From Candidatus Bathyarchaeota archaeon (GTDB lineage: Archaea; Thermoproteota; Bathyarchaeia; Bathyarchaeales; Bathycorpusculaceae), in NCBI GenBank assembly GCA_003133625.1, contig PKYH01000122.1:1-41998 (forward strand): a stretch of 41,998 nt of DNA, given 5' to 3'. The notes beneath the pieces are model-generated. The model saw nothing but the letters and a program-made list of their open reading frames with translations, made no database searches and was not told where the DNA came from. Below, one piece after another: positions 2,107-38,177 of this stretch. Each line of letters starts with the position of its first letter. Within the stretch, counting starts at the first letter, position 1. The translations under genes were made by a program, and so were the position numbers.

Positions 2107-2150
2107 TAAATTACAAGCCAGAAACGTTTGCCATTTAAGGGTTGAAAATT

Positions 2151-3077
2151 ATGACCGAAACAGTTCGCGTGACAGCGGAAAGGATAAGAAAACTGGAAGT
2201 TCAAGGGGCAAGAAACGTTGCAATAGCCGCCATAAAAGCCCTCCAAACATTAGCAGAGCAGACAAAAGCCAAAAACAAAACAGCATTCTTAAGCGAGCTC
2301 AAAGAAGCGCAAGCTATGCTTTTTGCGTCAAGAGAAACTGAGCCCTTAATGAGAAACGCCATCCGTTGGATAATTACTCAGGTCGAAGACAGCAGCACAG
2401 AAAAAGTTGATGCACTGCGCCAAATGGTTGTTTCAAACGCAAGCCAATTCTTGAAAAATCTTGAGGCGTCAAGAGAGCGTATCGCTGAAATAGGAGCCAA
2501 ACGAATCCGCGACGGCTCTGTGATTTTTACGCATTGCCATTCCTCAACCGTAACCCGCCTGCTTGCTAGAGCCAAAAAAGACGGCAAAAACTTGAAGGTA
2601 ATCTGCACTGAAACCAGACCTGCTTTCCAAGGAAGAATAACCGCAAGAGAAATGGTGGAACTAGGCGTTGAGACCACGTTTATTGTTGATTCAGCCGCTC
2701 GCTCATTTATGGGAAACGTGGACCTCATAATATTGGGAGCGGACGCTATTACCTCGGAGGGGAACGTGGTTAACAAGATTGGCACCAGCACCATCGCAGT
2801 GCTGGCTTACGAAGCTAGGAAACCGTTGTATGTTGTCTCGGAACTGTTAAAGTTTGACCCTGAAACACTTTATGGTGAATACGAGAAAATTGAGCAACGA
2901 AACCCCAGGGAGGTTTGGAAGGAAGCCCCAGAAAAACTGGGGGTGAAGAATCCAGCCTTTGATGTTACTCCAAGCAAGTACATTCACGGCTTAATATGCG
3001 AAGAAGGAGTAATCACTCCTCAATCAATAGTTGAAGTTGTGCATCGAAGATATCCGTGGGTTCTAAAGCACACTTAG
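2151..3077 (+). CDS. ribose-1,5-bisphosphate isomerase (e2b2 family)
   Basis: eIF2B-alpha-like fold motifs (TETRPAFQGR, DLIILGADAITSEGNVVNKIGTSTIAVLA), adjacent to RuBisCO and AMP phosphorylase. An in-frame TTG lies upstream at 2142. Confidence 0.9.
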   Translation: MTETVRVTAERIRKLEVQGARNVAIAAIKALQTLAEQTKAKNKTAFLSELKEAQAMLFASRETEPLMRNAIRWIITQVEDSSTEKVDALRQMVVSNASQFLKNLEASRERIAEIGAKRIRDGSVIFTHCHSSTVTRLLARAKKDGKNLKVICTETRPAFQGRITAREMVELGVETTFIVDSAARSFMGNVDLIILGADAITSEGNVVNKIGTSTIAVLAYEARKPLYVVSELLKFDPETLYGEYEKIEQRNPREVWKEAPEKLGVKNPAFDVTPSKYIHGLICEEGVITPQSIVEVVHRRYPWVLKHT

Positions 3078-4297
3078 GCTTTCCATAGCTCCAATGCGGT
3101 CTTCAGTTCCTTGTGTCTTTTAGCGTATTCTTCCAAGGATAATCCCTTCAATGTGGCATCAACGGCTTGCCGCATTGCCTTTGCACCCGCCACTGTCCCG
3201 TCTGGGTGCCCGTGGATTCCGCCGCCAGCTTGAATAACCACATCATTGCCAAACGTTTCCACTAAAGCAGGCACAAGTCTAGGATGCAGTCCGCCTGAAG
3301 CAACAGGCAAAACAGGCTTTAATCCGCCCAGCTCAGCTTTGCAGGCGTCGATGTTTTCGAGCACTTCAGCTTTAGCCTCAGACATTTTGCCCACTACAGT
3401 GCCTACGTGAAGTTGGTCAACGCCGATTATTCTTGCAACTGTTGCTATTGGACGCATTGAGATGCCGTGCTTTGGGTTCTTGGTGAAAGCAGCATGCCCA
3501 GCTCGGTGGGCGTGGATGACGAGTTTGTAGTTTTGGTTGCGCAGGGTTTGCAGTGCTGACCAGCCGCAGGTTAAAATGTCTACCATGACGTATTCTCCGC
3601 CTTGGTCGAGGACTGTTTGTGCACGTTTTAGCATGGTGTCGGTTTCAGCGGTAATGTTAACCATGTAGACCTTGCGTTCGCCCGTTTCCTCTTGCGCTTT
3701 ATCGCGGCTCTCCAAAGTCTGCGAAAGGCGGTCTTCGAAGGGGTTGAATTTTTGGCTGCTCAGGTTCTCGTCGTCTTTTACTATGTCACAGCCGCCGCTC
3801 CAAGCGTCATAAGCCACTTTTGCATGGTCTTTAGTGTTTAATCCGAGTTTAGGCTTGATTATGGTACCGACAAGTGGACGTTCTGGAACTTTTAGGAGCT
3901 TGCGAATCCCAGCTATGCCATAATTTGGACCTTTGAAACTGTTGACTAGGTCTTTGGGCATTTGGATGTCGAGGAGTCGTAGGTTTTTGAGTGCCTTAAG
4001 CCCGAAAACGTTTCCGGCAACGCTGCTTAGAATGTTGGGCATGTTGGCTGGCTCAAACAGTTCGATGGAATAAGCGATTTTTGCAATGTTGCCTTCTATG
4101 CTGAACACGTGGGCTGCTAGCCGTGTCACGTATGGTTGAGTGGTTGTGAGTTCTGTCCATGTGCCAATGGAACTTTCCGCGGCAACGCCGCCTGCGGCTT
4201 CGTTGAGGCTGATGCCCTCGGGCTCTAAGTAAAAAGTGCAAACCAAGTCGGTTTCTTTTGGCTTGTAAGTTGAATCTACAAAGTCAAGATACTTCAA
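3074..4297 (-). CDS. rbcL: ribulose-bisphosphate carboxylase large chain, archaeal form III
   Basis: GTIIKPKLGL, GGCDIVKDDENLSS (carbamylated-Lys motif), HAHRAGHAAFT and HVGTVVGKMSE (loop 6) are all present. Confidence 0.97.
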   Translation of the reverse strand: MKYLDFVDSTYKPKETDLVCTFYLEPEGISLNEAAGGVAAESSIGTWTELTTTQPYVTRLAAHVFSIEGNIAKIAYSIELFEPANMPNILSSVAGNVFGLKALKNLRLLDIQMPKDLVNSFKGPNYGIAGIRKLLKVPERPLVGTIIKPKLGLNTKDHAKVAYDAWSGGCDIVKDDENLSSQKFNPFEDRLSQTLESRDKAQEETGERKVYMVNITAETDTMLKRAQTVLDQGGEYVMVDILTCGWSALQTLRNQNYKLVIHAHRAGHAAFTKNPKHGISMRPIATVARIIGVDQLHVGTVVGKMSEAKAEVLENIDACKAELGGLKPVLPVASGGLHPRLVPALVETFGNDVVIQAGGGIHGHPDGTVAGAKAMRQAVDATLKGLSLEEYAKRHKELKTALELWKA

Positions 4298-4385
4298 AGC
4301 GTTCCTCTCAGGTTTAGTGTGAACTGGGTTTTCCTTAAAATCTTTAACTATTTCTATAACTAATCAATAATTGATGTGGTCTTGG

Positions 4386-5930
4386 ATGGAGCTCATTGTT
4401 GAATCCTTAAACATTACTACAGGCGGAAGCAGAATCGCCATACTGAGTGAACAAAGCGCCAGCCTGTTAGACGTGCACAGTTCAGACAGAATACGAATAA
4501 CCTATGGCAGTCAACAGATGATTGCTATTGCGAATATAGCGGCTAATTTTCCCCAAAACCGCATTGGACTCTACGATGAAACCGCCTCTGCGCTCGGGGT
4601 GAAGGAAGACGAGACAGTCAATGTGCAGTTGGCTCCGCTTCCTGAATCATTGTTTAACGTTCGAGCAAAACTGCGTGGAGAGCGTTTGCGGGAGAAAGAC
4701 ATCGTGACTATTGTGAATGATGTTGTTGAGAGGCATTTGAGTACGGTTGAAATAGCGGCTTTCTTAACCGCGCTTAGCATTCATGGATTAAGCGCTAGTG
4801 AGAATGAGGCTTTGTCAAGGGCGATGGTTGCCACGGGAAAAACGCTCAGTTTTGGCGAAGCGCCCATCCTAGATAAGCATAGTGTAGGCGGGATACCTGG
4901 CGACAAAACCTCAATGCTGGTCGTGCCCATTGTGGCGGCTGCAGGATTCACTATTCCCAAAACATCTTCACGCGCAATTACTTCGCCTGCTGGAACCGCT
5001 GACCGGGTGGAAACCCTCTGTCCCGTAAACCTATCTATCAACGAGATTAAGGATGTTGTATCGAAAACGAACGGGTGCTTGGTTTGGGGCGGTGCCTTGG
5101 AACTTGCGCCAGCTGATGACTTGTTTATTCAGGTTGAGTACCCGTTGGGAATTGACCCTATGCTTTTACCTTCGATTCTTAGCAAGAAAAAAGCAATAGG
5201 TGCAACGCACGTTGTCATTGACATTCCTACCGGAATGGGTGCTAAAATCAAAACCCGAACCGAAGCGTACACGTTAGCGTCTGATTTTGTGGATTTAGGA
5301 AAGCGTTTAGACTTAAACATTCAATGCGCTTTGACTTTTGGAGACCAACCGTTAGGCTGCAGCATCGGACCTGCCCTTGAAGCCAAGGAAGCGTTAACAA
5401 CTCTTATGGGCGGTGGTCCGCCTGACCTGCGGGAGAAAGCTGTTAGTCTTGCAGGCATGCTTTTCGAGATGGTCGGAGTTGAAAACGGGCGAGCTAAAGC
5501 GGAGGATATGCTTGATTCTGGCAAAGCTGAGAAGAAGATGCGTGAAATCATTGGAGCTCAAGGGGGAAACCCAGCGGTTAAACCTGATGAATTACCTGTC
5601 GGCGCTGAAAAGGCTGAAGTGCGATCTGAACACGCTGGCAAAGTCATATGGCTCAGCACCGAAGACATCGTGAGGATTGCAAGGGAAGCTGGAGCTCCTA
5701 AAGAGAAGGGTGCGGGCATAGTGCTGCACGCGAAGCTTGGTGAAACTGTGCATAAAGACGAAGTGTTGTTTGAAGTGTATGCTGAGAGAAGCAGCAAGTT
5801 GGCTTCGGCGCTGGAGATTGCAGGGCAATTGTTGCCTATTGTGCTGACTAAGAAGCCTGCGGAAAAGATGATTTTGGATCAGGTGCCTGAAAAGCTTTCA
5901 CATGAGAAATCGTTCATGTTAGACAGATAA
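4386..5930 (+). CDS. deoA: AMP phosphorylase (nucleoside 5'-monophosphate phosphorylase)
   Basis: Thymidine phosphorylase-family signature KHSVGGIPGDKTSMLVVPIVAAAG and SRAITSPAGTADRVETL, long archaeal N-terminus, RuBisCO neighbour. Alternative starts at 4371/4374. Confidence 0.93.
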   Translation: MELIVESLNITTGGSRIAILSEQSASLLDVHSSDRIRITYGSQQMIAIANIAANFPQNRIGLYDETASALGVKEDETVNVQLAPLPESLFNVRAKLRGERLREKDIVTIVNDVVERHLSTVEIAAFLTALSIHGLSASENEALSRAMVATGKTLSFGEAPILDKHSVGGIPGDKTSMLVVPIVAAAGFTIPKTSSRAITSPAGTADRVETLCPVNLSINEIKDVVSKTNGCLVWGGALELAPADDLFIQVEYPLGIDPMLLPSILSKKKAIGATHVVIDIPTGMGAKIKTRTEAYTLASDFVDLGKRLDLNIQCALTFGDQPLGCSIGPALEAKEALTTLMGGGPPDLREKAVSLAGMLFEMVGVENGRAKAEDMLDSGKAEKKMREIIGAQGGNPAVKPDELPVGAEKAEVRSEHAGKVIWLSTEDIVRIAREAGAPKEKGAGIVLHAKLGETVHKDEVLFEVYAERSSKLASALEIAGQLLPIVLTKKPAEKMILDQVPEKLSHEKSFMLDR

Positions 5931-10919: not shown

Positions 10920-12344
10920 CTATTTCTTGTTCATTAGGTATTCATGCATTGCTTTTGCTGCGCGTTTGCCTGCTCCCATTGCGCTGATGACTGTTGCTGC
11001 TCCTGTAGCTACGTCTCCGCCCGCGTAAACACCGTCTAAGCTTGTTTTGCCAACTTCGTTAACGCATATTGTTCCGTGTCTTGGGTCGCTTTGTAAGCCG
11101 TCTGTTGTTCGCTGGATAATTGGGTTTGGTGTTTGACCGATGGCAACGATTACTGTGTCAACGTCCATTGTGAATTCTGAGCCTGGAACTTCTTTTACTC
11201 CACGTCTGCCTTTTGCATCAGGTTCAGTGAGTTCCATTGCGATGCATTTCATGCTTTTAACCCAGCCTTTCTCGTCACCGTAAAACTCGAGTGGTGCAGC
11301 AAGGAACTTGCAGACCAAGCCTTCTTCTTCCGCGTTTTCGATTTCTTCGTGTCTTGCTGGCAACTCAGTACGTGAGCGTCTGTAAAGCAAGCAAACGTCA
11401 GCGCCAAGCCGCATGCTGCTTCTTGCGCAGTCCATGGCAACGTTTCCGCCGCCGATGACGACTACGTGTTTGCCGATGCGTATTGGTGTGTCGTACTCTG
11501 GGAAAGCGAAGGCTTTCATCAAGTTAACGCGGATAAGGAATTCGTTGGCTGAGTAAATTCCGCCAAGGTTTTCTCCTGGGCAACCAGTGAACTGGGGCAA
11601 GCCTGCGCCGCTACCGATGAATACTGCCTCATAACCGTCCTTCATGAGTTCTGGAATAGTGTGAATCCTTCCAACCAAGTTGCCAACGCGCAAGTCAACA
11701 CCCAATTTCTGAATGTAAGCAACCTCATTTTGCACGATGGCTTTTGGTAAACGGAACTCTGGAATACCATACGACAACACCCCACCGCCAACATGCAAAG
11801 CTTCAAACATTGTAACGTCATGACCAAGCTTCACCAAGTCAGCAGCAGCCGTTAATCCAGCTGGACCTGCACCAACAATTGCTATTTTTTTGCCTGTTGG
11901 TGGAGCTTTCTGCGGAATCTGAGAGCCGTTATCTCGTTCCCAATCTGCAAGAAAACGTTCTAAGCGTCCGACGCTGATTGGATCACCCATCTTGCCGACG
12001 ACACATTTAGCTTGACATTGTACTTCTTGAGGGCAAACTCTTCCGCAAACAGCGGGCAACGCATTCTTCGCCTTTATGAGAGCTATGCCTTCAGCATACT
12101 TCTTTTCTTTAAGCAGCTTAATGAACGCTGGAATAGGAACATCCACAGGACAACCAGTTATACATTGAGGCTTAGGACACTGCAAACAACGATTAGCTTC
12201 TTCTTGAGCTTCAGCTTCAGTGTAACCTAAAGCGACCTCATTAAAGTTTTTAGCGCGTACTTTTGGATCTTGCTTAGCCATTTCTACGGCTTTCTTGTTT
12301 AATTTTGGTTTAGGCTTTGTTTCTGCCACACTTACAACCTCCAC
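10920..12344 (-). CDS. NADPH-dependent glutamate synthase small-subunit-like / NfnB (SudA) oxidoreductase
   Basis: N-terminal RCLQCPKPQCITGCPV FeS region, GAGPAGLTAAADL FAD motif, GGGNVAMDCARS NADP motif, AGGDVATGAATVISAMGAGK. Confidence 0.9.
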   Translation of the reverse strand: MEVVSVAETKPKPKLNKKAVEMAKQDPKVRAKNFNEVALGYTEAEAQEEANRCLQCPKPQCITGCPVDVPIPAFIKLLKEKKYAEGIALIKAKNALPAVCGRVCPQEVQCQAKCVVGKMGDPISVGRLERFLADWERDNGSQIPQKAPPTGKKIAIVGAGPAGLTAAADLVKLGHDVTMFEALHVGGGVLSYGIPEFRLPKAIVQNEVAYIQKLGVDLRVGNLVGRIHTIPELMKDGYEAVFIGSGAGLPQFTGCPGENLGGIYSANEFLIRVNLMKAFAFPEYDTPIRIGKHVVVIGGGNVAMDCARSSMRLGADVCLLYRRSRTELPARHEEIENAEEEGLVCKFLAAPLEFYGDEKGWVKSMKCIAMELTEPDAKGRRGVKEVPGSEFTMDVDTVIVAIGQTPNPIIQRTTDGLQSDPRHGTICVNEVGKTSLDGVYAGGDVATGAATVISAMGAGKRAAKAMHEYLMNKK

Positions 12345-13155
12345 TCATTTCCCACAACACTGAACTTAATCGTTCTTCGGGAAGCATTGTACGTTGACGT
12401 AGTATCAACTGGTCAAAGTCAGTTTTGTGACCGTCAAATTCTGGACCGTCAACACAGCCAAACATCATTTTGCCATCAACTGTGACACGGCATACTCCGC
12501 ACATGCCCATGCCATCAATCATTATAGGCGTTAAAGTTACAATCGTTGGAATGCCATAAGGCTTGGTGATTTCGCTTACATCCTTCATCAGGATTACTGG
12601 TCCCATAACGATGCAGCGGTCAAACTTTTCCTTCTTGAGTAAGTCTTTAAGGAAATCTAATCCTTTGTAACCTTTTGAACCATCATCAGTTGCTATGTAA
12701 ACTTTGTCGCTCATGGCTTTAGCTTCATCTTCCATCATTATGAACTCCTTTGTCCTAGCGCCGAGAACAGTGGTTACGTTGTTGCCTGCTGCTTTCATGG
12801 CTTTAACCTGCAACAGCAACGGCGCAATCATCACGCTTCCGCCGACACAGAGGACTTTGCCGAAGTTTTTGACTTCAGACGGATTGCCAAGTGGACCTGT
12901 AACGTTATCGATGCATTCGCCTTCGTTTAGTAAGCCAAGCGCTTTTGTGGTTTTGCCAACTTCATGGAAAGCAAACGATACTGTTCCTTTCGCTCTGTCA
13001 TATTCGCAGATTGTCAGGGGTATTCGCTCGCCTGCTTTGCCGTTTATGACTATTACGAATTGTCCAACTTGCGATTTAGCTGCAATGTCGGAAGCTTCAA
13101 CTTCAAACAGCTTAATTTTTGGAACAAGTTCTTTTTTAGTTACTATTTTGTACGT
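12310..13155 (-). CDS. sulfide dehydrogenase beta / NfnA (SudB)-type FAD/NAD(P)-binding subunit, apparent ACG start
   Basis: The frame extends upstream of the listed 12310..12834 ORF as TYKIVTKKELVPKIKLFEVEASDIAAKSQVGQFVIV...ERIPLTI...VGKTTKALG...GPLGNPSE, matching the SudB/PyrK N-terminus. C-terminal CGVCRV..FGCVDGPEFD FeS motif. No ATG/GTG/TTG in the extension. Confidence 0.85.
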   Translation of the reverse strand, partial: TYKIVTKKELVPKIKLFEVEASDIAAKSQVGQFVIVINGKAGERIPLTICEYDRAKGTVSFAFHEVGKTTKALGLLNEGECIDNVTGPLGNPSEVKNFGKVLCVGGSVMIAPLLLQVKAMKAAGNNVTTVLGARTKEFIMMEDEAKAMSDKVYIATDDGSKGYKGLDFLKDLLKKEKFDRCIVMGPVILMKDVSEITKPYGIPTIVTLTPIMIDGMGMCGVCRVTVDGKMMFGCVDGPEFDGHKTDFDQLILRQRTMLPEERLSSVLWEMSGGCKCGRNKA

Positions 13156-14387
13156 TTTGCTTTCGCCTCCACAGCTATTTCACGTCTTGGTAACGCTGAA
13201 ATTTTCTTATAGAAAGCATCCAGTTTCTGATTGAAGTCGCCAGCACATCTTGGTGACTCCTCATAAAGTTCGAATCGATCAAGCAGATTCTTCTTTTTCA
13301 ACACATTCAATAATACGCCCAAGTTGCGCTCTGCAGTGTCTTTGCCTTCTTGAAGTTTGCAGTCTTTAGATGGGCACACGACAGCCATTACACCGTCGAA
13401 ACCGCAGTTTAATGCGTTGACGACGTGAACTGGATCTAAGGATTTGAAGCATGGAACTTCAAGGGCTAACACGTTTTTGCCTGCAAACGCGCTGTTAGGA
13501 TTGTCTAAAGCTGAGAATTCTGACCATTGGCAAACGAACGCAAGAACTGCTGGACCGTGGTTTTTAGCTTTCAATTGTGCAATTGAATTCCCATAACGGT
13601 TTACTACGTTTTCAAACTCGAAGCCTTTCACTTGAATAGCGTGATGTGGACAAACCAGTTGGCATGCGCCACAGCCGACGCATTTCTCTTCGTTTACTTT
13701 TGGAGTAGCAAACGATTCAAACTCAAGCGCTTTATACGGGCAGATAAAGATGCATTTGCCACAGCCCACGCATTCTTGAACATCATAAACCGCTTTGCGG
13801 GAGAACTTTACTATTCTAACTGCGTTTTCATCGAAGCCTAATTGTTTGAGGACATTTCTGGCTAAAACGAGTCTTCGAGTGCTTATTTTTGTGCCTTCTT
13901 TATAGCGGCAGAAGGGATCTTCACATTGAACAGAAACAATATTTTTAATGCCTGAATTAAGGGCATCAAAAACAAAGTCGGTTGGAACTCTGCCTGAACA
14001 TGGCAAACGCAACGCAACGTACTTGCCAACTTTTAACCCTTGCTCTTTAAGGATATCTTGGACTTCGCCTGTGGAAGGCGAGTTTCCTCGGCACATTAAA
14101 ACAAGCGTGTCAGCGCCATCTTTGGCTTTTGCACGTGCCTGTTTAACGTAGTTTGAAAGATTATCGTAAGTGTAATATTGCATTTTAATGGCTGAAACAG
14201 GACAAGCACTGTAGCATATGCCACAAACTTGGCAGTCTTGAGTGTTTACTTCAACTTTTCCGGTTGAGTCGCGTTTTATGGCTTCATAAGGGCAAATTGA
14301 TTGGCAAACATAACACCGGCTACATAAATCTTGATTGATTTCCACTACAGCGAGACATTTTTCGCTCATTCTGAAACCTCTTTTCAT
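13143..14387 (-). CDS. polyferredoxin with duplicated FlpD/MvhD-like domains
   Basis: Four 4Fe-4S motifs (CSRCYVCQSICP, CQVCGICYSACP, CVGCGKCIFICP, CVGCGACQLVCP), each pair followed by an MvhD-like segment (LPCSGR..., VPCFKSLD...VVCPSKDCKLQEG). Confidence 0.85.
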   Translation of the reverse strand: MKRGFRMSEKCLAVVEINQDLCSRCYVCQSICPYEAIKRDSTGKVEVNTQDCQVCGICYSACPVSAIKMQYYTYDNLSNYVKQARAKAKDGADTLVLMCRGNSPSTGEVQDILKEQGLKVGKYVALRLPCSGRVPTDFVFDALNSGIKNIVSVQCEDPFCRYKEGTKISTRRLVLARNVLKQLGFDENAVRIVKFSRKAVYDVQECVGCGKCIFICPYKALEFESFATPKVNEEKCVGCGACQLVCPHHAIQVKGFEFENVVNRYGNSIAQLKAKNHGPAVLAFVCQWSEFSALDNPNSAFAGKNVLALEVPCFKSLDPVHVVNALNCGFDGVMAVVCPSKDCKLQEGKDTAERNLGVLLNVLKKKNLLDRFELYEESPRCAGDFNQKLDAFYKKISALPRREIAVEAKAKRTK

Positions 14388-36396: not shown

Positions 36397-36921
36397 TTGA
36401 GATGCGAAGTCTGCGGACATAAAATTCACACTGAACCAATAACGGCAGTAATTGAAGGAGCCAAACTAACCGTCTGCGTTGAATGCTCAAAACATGGCAA
36501 AATAATTCATGAAGAAGCAGCCCTTCCCCAACAAGCCCTCAAAAAACCGCAGGCGCCAATTACACTGGTTCAGAAAAAACCAATAGTGGCTAAAGTAGAA
36601 ATTACTCAAGAGATCACAGAAGATTATGCAAATAAGATAAAGCTGGCACGGGAAAAACTAGCGCTTACACATGAGGAACTCGGCAAAAAAATAAATGAGA
36701 AAGCCTCGGTTTTAAGAAACCTTGAAGGTGGGAAAATGGCGCCAAACAACCAGCTAGCCTCAAAGCTTGAGCACATGTTAAAAATCAAGTTGCTTGTTCC
36801 AATCTCTGAAGAAAAAATCACTCAAATTCCTAAATCCGCCAACCGAGAATTGACGTTGGGCGACCTCATGGAATTGAACAAGAAAGGCGGGGAGGAGCCT
36901 ACAGAACGAAAGCCATCATAG
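36397..36921 (+). CDS. archaeal multiprotein bridging factor 1 (zinc ribbon + HTH)
   Basis: MRCEVCGHKIHTEP...CVECSKHG zinc ribbon, then KIKLAREKLALTHEELGKKINEKASVLRNLEGGKMAP HTH_3. Confidence 0.9.
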   Translation: MRCEVCGHKIHTEPITAVIEGAKLTVCVECSKHGKIIHEEAALPQQALKKPQAPITLVQKKPIVAKVEITQEITEDYANKIKLAREKLALTHEELGKKINEKASVLRNLEGGKMAPNNQLASKLEHMLKIKLLVPISEEKITQIPKSANRELTLGDLMELNKKGGEEPTERKPS

Positions 36922-38177
36922 CGCAACGCAGGCTGAACCGTGAAAACTCAAGTTTAGAGGAACTTAAAAGTTTAGCAGAATCCGCCGGATACACAGTTGT
37001 CGCCACATTAGAGCAAACTAGACCGCCTGATGCTCGCTACCAAATAGGCGCTGGAAAAGTAGAAGAACTCGCCGAACTAGTCAAGGAAACCGGCGCAGAA
37101 AAAGTAATTTTTGACAACCAACTAAAAACACGCCAAACCTACAATCTGGCAAAAGCAACACGAGTCGAAGTCATCGACAGGTTTCAGCTTATTCTTGAAA
37201 TTTTCACCAAAAGAGCCACAACAACCGAAGCCCAAATGCAAATCCAACTGGCCACACTGCAAAATGAGCTTAAGCATGCGAAAGAAAAAGTAAGATTAGC
37301 TAAAATGAGAGAGCAGCCTGGCTTTATGGGACTTGGATCTTACGAAGCAGACGTTTACAAGGAAGCCATAAAACTACAAGTTCAAACAATCCTTAAAAAA
37401 CTGAAAAAAATCCGCGAAAAAAGAATCCTGCACCGAGAAAGAAGAACGGAGCTGGGTTTCCTTGCTATTTCACTTGCTGGATACACGAATGCTGGAAAAA
37501 GCTCCCTGTTTAACGCTTTAACCGAAGAAACCGTGCGAGTGGATAAGTCATTATTTACTACTCTTTCAACGACCACGCGGATGGTGGAGTTTTCAAACCG
37601 CAAGTTTCTTTTAACAGACACCGTCGGCTTCATTGACCGATTGCCTTTATCGTTGATTGAAGCATTTCATTCAACCTTGGAAGAAACCATTTATTCAGAC
37701 CTGATAATACTTGTTTTAGATTTAAGCGAGCCCATAGAAACAATCGAGAAGAAAAACAACATCTGCCTGGAGACAATTGACCGCCTTGGAGCATCAGGCA
37801 TACCAACCATAACCGCACTAAACAAAATTGACTTAATCAGCGAAGCTGAAACTAAGCAGAAACTGAAAGCTCTAGAAGAGAAAACGCAAAATCCAATTCT
37901 CCTATCAGCAAAGTGCCAAACAAACCTCGACTTACTAAGACAGGAAATACTCAAAATTCTTGAAAATTACGTGCAAGCCCAGTTCTCTGTTCCGTTAACT
38001 AATAAGGCAATGCCATTTATCTCGTGGGTTCACGAAAAAACAGACATCAGAAAAGAAAATTTCACCAACGATTCGGTTCAAGTAGTCTTTGAAGCTACCC
38101 CAGAATTAGCTGAGCAAGTGAGAAGAAAAGTGGAAGAATTAAATGGCAAATTTGAAACCAACTCAAAAACAAAATGA
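36906..38177 (+). CDS. hflX: HflX-type GTPase, apparent ACG start
   Basis: SLAGYTNAGKSSLFNALTEE, LTDTVGFIDRLPLSLIEAFHSTLEE. The frame extends 110 codons upstream of the first ATG (37236) as TKAIIAQRRLNRENSSLEELKSLAESAGYTVVATLEQTRPPDARYQIGAGKVEELAELV, the canonical HflX N-domain, with no ATG/GTG/TTG. Confidence 0.92.
   Translation, partial: TKAIIAQRRLNRENSSLEELKSLAESAGYTVVATLEQTRPPDARYQIGAGKVEELAELVKETGAEKVIFDNQLKTRQTYNLAKATRVEVIDRFQLILEIFTKRATTTEAQMQIQLATLQNELKHAKEKVRLAKMREQPGFMGLGSYEADVYKEAIKLQVQTILKKLKKIREKRILHRERRTELGFLAISLAGYTNAGKSSLFNALTEETVRVDKSLFTTLSTTTRMVEFSNRKFLLTDTVGFIDRLPLSLIEAFHSTLEETIYSDLIILVLDLSEPIETIEKKNNICLETIDRLGASGIPTITALNKIDLISEAETKQKLKALEEKTQNPILLSAKCQTNLDLLRQEILKILENYVQAQFSVPLTNKAMPFISWVHEKTDIRKENFTNDSVQVVFEATPELAEQVRRKVEELNGKFETNSKTK

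Follow-up and report, generated by a model that had tools for sequence, protein, structure and literature searches.

In a bathyarchaeal order, the gene for HflX, a ribosome-splitting GTPase, almost always begins, as read from genome comparison, with ACG, and in one family with ATA. The best explanation, to which we assign a probability of about 0.85, is that hflX starts at an ACG placed by a Shine-Dalgarno sequence and that this weak near-cognate start has probably been kept by selection. The gene is located in the window, i.e., the whole analyzed stretch of 41,998 nucleotides from a Candidatus Bathyarchaeota archaeon (contig PKYH01000122.1), directly behind the gene for aMBF1:

36397..36921, forward strand: aMBF1 gene (TIGR00270, 141 bits), TTG start, TAG stop at 36919-36921.
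36891..36895, forward strand: Shine-Dalgarno sequence GGAGG of hflX, read from the sequence, with a 10-nt spacer to the ACG.
36906..36908, forward strand: ACG, inferred start codon of hflX; ACG in 106/129 genomes of the order, stop codon directly 5' in six congeners.
36906..38177, forward strand: hflX coding sequence, 423 codons from the ACG (TIGR03156, PF13167, MMR_HSR1; PDB relatives 2qtf, 5ady).

The hflX start is nested inside the end of the MBF1 gene, whose TAG lies 13 nt 3' of the A of the ACG. In the hflX frame, 24 open codons precede the ACG without any ATG, GTG or TTG, and canonical starts begin only with the ATG at 37236, 110 codons 3' of the ACG (ACG being codon 1). This internal ATG was rejected as the true start, as the whole N-terminal domain would go. 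Read from the ACG, the protein matches TIGR03156 (GTPase HflX) with 296.4 bits (cut-off 216.75) in an alignment beginning at residue 8, and contains PF13167 (HflX N-terminal domain, residues 15-100), PF16360 (103-180) and PF01926 (188-307). The full architecture of N-terminal and GTPase domains is obtained only in this reading; from 37236, the PF13167 region is lost. Solved HflX structures (PDB 2qtf, 5ady; the Sulfolobus protein included) align from approximately residue 12-18, as expected with a start near the ACG, and the predicted N-terminus is M-K-A-I-I-A-Q-R-R. The original prediction, made from the window alone, had held that the ORF from 37236 lacks the N-terminal HflX domain and that its frame runs 110 codons further upstream, past no ATG, GTG or TTG, to an ACG standing 10 nt behind GGAGG and 13 nt before the MBF1 TAG; sequence and domain searches agree with it in all these points. 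Gene-finders restricted to ATG, GTG and TTG cut HflX by 110 residues, so that the N-terminal domain is gone, and the same limit will mis-start other genes of this large bathyarchaeal lineage.

A codon-usage scan of the window covered 44 genes. In only two of them, hflX and a gene for a SudB-like protein, does the coding signal extend over more than 100 codons 5' of the first ATG, GTG or TTG; both have the layout GGAGG-N10-ACG. A second case of this kind, nested in its upstream ORF, had been foreseen as well, and it was recovered as follows:

13166..13170, reverse strand: Shine-Dalgarno sequence GGAGG of the SudB-like gene, with a 10-nt spacer.
13153..13155, reverse strand: ACG, putative start of the SudB-like gene; orthologues have ACG, ATG, GTG or TTG at or beside this position.
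12310..13155, reverse strand: coding sequence of the SudB-like flavin/Fe-S reductase subunit, 281 codons from the ACG (PF10418), with 112 coding-signal codons before the first NTG.
13143..14387, reverse strand: upstream 4Fe-4S ferredoxin-like ORF; it ends with a TAG, in a 13-nt overlap with the start of the SudB-like gene.

An Rfam scan of the window gave one tRNA and nothing else. Positions 2142-5930 carry an apparent archaeal AMP-pathway cluster, judged from the translations:

2142-3077, forward strand: ribose-1,5-bisphosphate isomerase-like, from the translation.
3074-4297, reverse strand: RuBisCO-like large subunit, from the translation; the 22 codons 5' of the first NTG show weak coding signal.
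4371-5930, forward strand: AMP phosphorylase-like, from the translation.

Codon 1 of hflX is ACG in 29 of 30 genomes of the same genus or family, and ATT (with ATA before it) in the remaining one; none of these 30 genomes has an in-frame canonical start 5' of this codon. Counted over congeners, ACG is present in 29/31, and in six of them (G003, G006, G015, G023, G024, G025) a stop codon abuts the ACG on its 5' side. The unusual codon is common to more distant relatives as well, as expected for a conserved non-canonical start of the infC type. Among 129 genomes of the order, it is ACG in 106, ACA in nine, ATG in four (G026, which belongs to the same genus, G060, G153, G166), ATA in three, ACT in two, and ACC, GCA, ATT, GTG or AGT in one each; nearly all of the ACG genomes are devoid of in-frame ATG, GTG or TTG 5' of it. 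The genome with GTG is G052, with MBF1 81 nt away. In G034, G054 and G189, the ACG is missing and no AT-type start is clear either, which counts against the reading. ACG accounts for 106 of the 118 threonine codons at this site (vs 12.8% of threonine codons in a congener) and thus exceeds chance. The orthologue comparison suggested with the original prediction speaks for the ACG. Furthermore, dozens of independent assemblies agree in it, and a sequencing error or polishing artefact was rejected as its source. The Shine-Dalgarno sequence is strong and stands at a fixed distance, GAGG-to-ACG spacing being 10 nt in 91 of the 97 ACG genomes where GAGG was found. In the source genome, GGAGG-to-NTG spacing peaks at 7-9 nt, and the 10-nt spacer of hflX is at the long end, another point against the reading.

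In a HflX tree, constructed with a quick method and including some partial sequences, parsimony assigns ACG to the ancestor of the order and requires a handful of losses. In other, more distant orders, hflX begins with ATG, GTG or TTG. Two genomes that fall outside the order, both of family f21, show ATC-ATC at hflX; at one of these loci (L159, G216), ATC-ATC is situated behind GGAGG, there is no in-frame ATG, GTG or TTG, and MBF1 ends 18 nt upstream. This ATC is possibly another near-cognate start.

A departure within the order is family f7, which comprises most of the ACA, ACC, ACT and GCA cases. Here, nine genomes have ATA one codon upstream of the ACG site, with the spacing GGAGG-N7; ATT is found in one genome and ATG in G196.

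f7 genomes with ATA: G049, G055, G194, G195, G197, G199, G200, G201, G202 (loci L073, L081, L196, L201).

In f7, the hflX start seems to have shifted upstream by one codon and changed to ATA, so that a second near-cognate codon would have been fixed at the family level. These starts bear on the idea that C-to-U mRNA editing turns ACG into AUG, as in plastid genes. ACG is the sole non-AUG codon repaired by a single C-to-U change, and several unrelated genes share ACG, both of which favour this idea. However, the ATA starts of f7 and ATA/ATT of G020 are not repairable in this way, and we know of no case of C-to-U mRNA editing in archaea. Editing is in our opinion very improbable.

Each of the 93 loci examined (order and near-order) has MBF1 directly 5' of hflX, and in 92 of these 93 pairs the MBF1 stop lies within -38 to +20 nt of the hflX start, i.e., with the overlap or very short distance expected for translational coupling. 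The distances observed are -38, -26, -20, -16, -13, -1, +1, +2, +3, +4, +8 and +20 nt, which cover all three relative frames; -16 is the commonest overlap, and in 17 genomes the MBF1 stop shares the A of the ACG (TAACG). Where MBF1 ends 8 or 20 nt upstream, hflX still has ACG. Thus, the ACG is independent of the frame of MBF1.

This independence decides on two readings in which the ACG would not be a start codon at all. According to the first of them, ribosomes translating MBF1 slip by -1 at A_CGA_AAG, stimulated by GGAGG, and produce an MBF1-HflX fusion, so that hflX needs no start codon. Indeed, A_CGA_AAG with an upstream Shine-Dalgarno-like element corresponds to the cdd site of Bacillus subtilis (Mejlhede 1999, as cited in PMC5009743), hflX of the window has the -1 frame relative to MBF1, and the heptamer is inside the MBF1 frame in 66 of the 106 ACG genomes. 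However, frameshifting would call for a constant -1 frame with a slip site before the stop, whereas the ACG is kept with MBF1 and hflX in the other relative frames and also where MBF1 stops at or before the ACG (the 17 TAACG genomes; +1 to +20 nt). Nor is the heptamer conserved: codon 2 is AAG, AGA or AGG rather than AAA in 24/106 ACG genomes, which leaves no slippery AAG. Moreover, some orthologues have ATG or GTG at the hflX codon. Frameshifting is therefore quite improbable for the order. A further point in its favour comes from a few genomes of genus g16 (family f6) in which ACG was lost (G054, G048, G106; loci L075, L076, L199). There, MBF1 ends with A_AAA_AAG_TAA, a dnaX-type slippery heptamer that is absent in g16 members with ACG (G101, G104), and in these genomes ACG initiation may have given way to a frameshift fusion.

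The second reading explains the codon through MBF1: CG would belong to an MBF1 arginine codon, an NTG with A behind it would introduce a TGA stop into MBF1, and HflX would start elsewhere. In the common -16 arrangement, NTG+A would in fact shorten MBF1 by four codons. Nevertheless, the ACG persists past the end of MBF1 (TAACG, +8, +20), the C-terminal residues of MBF1 vary freely among relatives, and there is no alternative start upstream, while downstream starts would remove the HflX N-terminal domain. A coding constraint of MBF1 is thus extremely improbable. Stops spread from -38 to +20 nt in all frames exclude both the frameshift fusion and the MBF1 constraint as general explanations.

Initiation at the ACG itself is further supported by other genes. 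At one aligned position, the SudB orthologues have ACG in nine cases, ATG in nine (one of them one codon upstream), GTG in one and TTG in one; such an exchange is direct evidence, by comparison, that ACG fills the role of ATG. A GCS2-family ligase gene has ACG in all nine congeners (L242-L250) and no overlapping upstream gene, and tmk, also without such a gene, has ACG in G006 only and ATG, TTG or GTG elsewhere. Among 1,132 genes, sampled without a systematic orthologue screen, seven cases of ACG starts were convincing (tmk, the GCS2-family ligase, metX, cbiH, DUF1919 and DUF2795 genes, and hflX).

Start zones were analyzed in 1.2 Mb of the congener G006 and 0.8 Mb of G195 (f7). At the gene starts of G006, an in-frame ACG stands 6-10 nt behind GGAGG in six cases, with 0.6 expected from gene interiors (p=5e-5) and 0.2 from the off-frame background. 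It is the top non-NTG codon in these zones and comes next in significance after ATG and TTG. With weaker Shine-Dalgarno motifs the ACG excess is modest (14 vs 7.9 and 28 vs 17), and the internal background is imperfect, as AGA, AGT and ACA rise too. ACA after GGAGG was seen five times near G006 gene starts (0.9 expected), which may be a composition effect or reflect occasional non-AUG starts. In G195, ACG is not enriched (1 vs 0.4); at the low power of this sample, that agrees with hflX having lost its ACG in f7. The genome-wide scan for GGAGG-N9-11-ACG proposed with the original prediction gave no enrichment as a raw count (88 sites vs 127 in the reversed control), but this is the wrong statistic because it is blind to reading frame and gene starts; counted in frame at start zones, the enrichment is present. 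An estimate by unsupervised EM, in which all 64 codons of G006 could serve as starts, was discarded: it was captured by A-rich codons because ~58% of G006 starts carry no Shine-Dalgarno sequence. G006 has an initiator tRNA that looks standard, with a CAU anticodon, A1-U72 and GGG/CCC in the anticodon stem.

Judged by these comparisons, ACG is a minor but genuine general start codon in the genus, beyond coupled pairs. The original prediction had proposed that this lineage uses ACG initiation in translationally coupled gene pairs. Its first half finds comparative support in the fixation at hflX in the order, the SudB interchange and the start-zone enrichment. The restriction to coupled pairs is too narrow, since the GCS2-family ligase in 9/9 congeners, tmk, and hflX at +8 and +20 have ACG without overlap.

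In the proposed mechanism, the strong, precisely spaced GGAGG would put the ACG into the ribosomal P site of the small subunit, where the ordinary Met initiator tRNA presumably reads it with one C.A mismatch. As hflX starts at the end of MBF1, ribosomes finishing MBF1 could add to the supply of HflX. In eukaryotes, MBF1 has a link to ribosome quality control. The weak start would have been kept since the ancestor of the order and swapped in f7 for the near-cognate ATA (once for ATG). Its likely purpose would be to hold the ribosome-splitting GTPase at a level that is low or depends on the stringency of initiation. In Sulfolobus, aIF1 has been reported to disfavour starts other than the canonical ones (as cited in PMC6237735 and PMC8211752), so that the ACG of hflX should be sensitive to initiation stringency.

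The same ACG could also initiate HflX and be merely tolerated, having drifted in behind a strong Shine-Dalgarno sequence without selection for weakness. The general minor use of ACG in the genus and the flips between ACG and ATG among SudB and tmk orthologues fit such tolerance. Yet a single C-to-T transition gives ATG, and only about 5/129 order genomes have ATG starts at hflX; f7, having lost ACG, has another near-cognate in its place. Furthermore, within the genus ACG is found in 29/31 genomes at hflX vs 8/16 at SudB (Fisher p=0.0012, with genomes counted individually and kinship ignored). The contrast between hflX and SudB, the rarity of ATG and the near-cognate replacement in f7 together suggest selection for weak initiation of hflX, and mere tolerance is a possible but rather doubtful reading. 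If weak initiation is selected, hflX, with a product that acts on ribosomes, would be a natural system in which to study how faithfully archaea choose their start codons.

Our literature search, with many subscription papers outside its scope, yielded no description of a working ACG start in archaea, and an earlier report is possible. ACG starts are familiar from eukaryotes (yeast GRS1 and ALA1, AAV VP2), where the ordinary initiator tRNA reads them as Met, as presumed here for hflX. However, eukaryotic ACG codons are reached by scanning and usually give alternative isoforms, whereas hflX has a single, Shine-Dalgarno-placed start in an archaeon. The proximity of mbf1 to hflX is known from Crenarchaeota, with no unusual start codon reported there (PMC3062615); in this order, the two genes form a tight unit with an ACG start. 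The termination-reinitiation pairs of Haloferax volcanii have NTG starts and mostly -4/-1 overlaps (PMC10666635). They resemble MBF1-hflX in consisting of overlapping or close unidirectional genes with the Shine-Dalgarno sequence inside the upstream gene, but differ from it in start codon and overlap, -16 being commonest here. The cdd site of B. subtilis (CGA AAG plus a Shine-Dalgarno-like stimulator) has a layout nearly identical to the common -16 arrangement; unlike at cdd, the relative frames and stop positions of MBF1-hflX vary while the ACG stays.

The closest parallel is found in bacterial genes with AUU or AUA starts, i.e., infC (encoding IF3) and pcnB, and cvfC1 (AUU) and ccpN (AUA) of Staphylococcus aureus, for which reduced or regulated expression was measured, ~10% of that from AUG in reporters (PMC13009471). 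Like hflX, genes of the infC type have a lineage-conserved non-canonical start and a strong or extended Shine-Dalgarno sequence, and some of their products, as IF3, act on the ribosome, as HflX does. They differ in being bacterial, in having AUU or AUA instead of ACG, and in the absence of coupling to MBF1; moreover, lowered expression was measured there and is inferred here. Tentatively, hflX might be regarded as an archaeal counterpart of infC, with a deliberately poor start (ACG or ATA) whose output would report how stringently start codons are selected (aIF1), or how well free subunits and ribosomes finishing MBF1 are supplied, and thereby close a feedback loop on ribosome availability.
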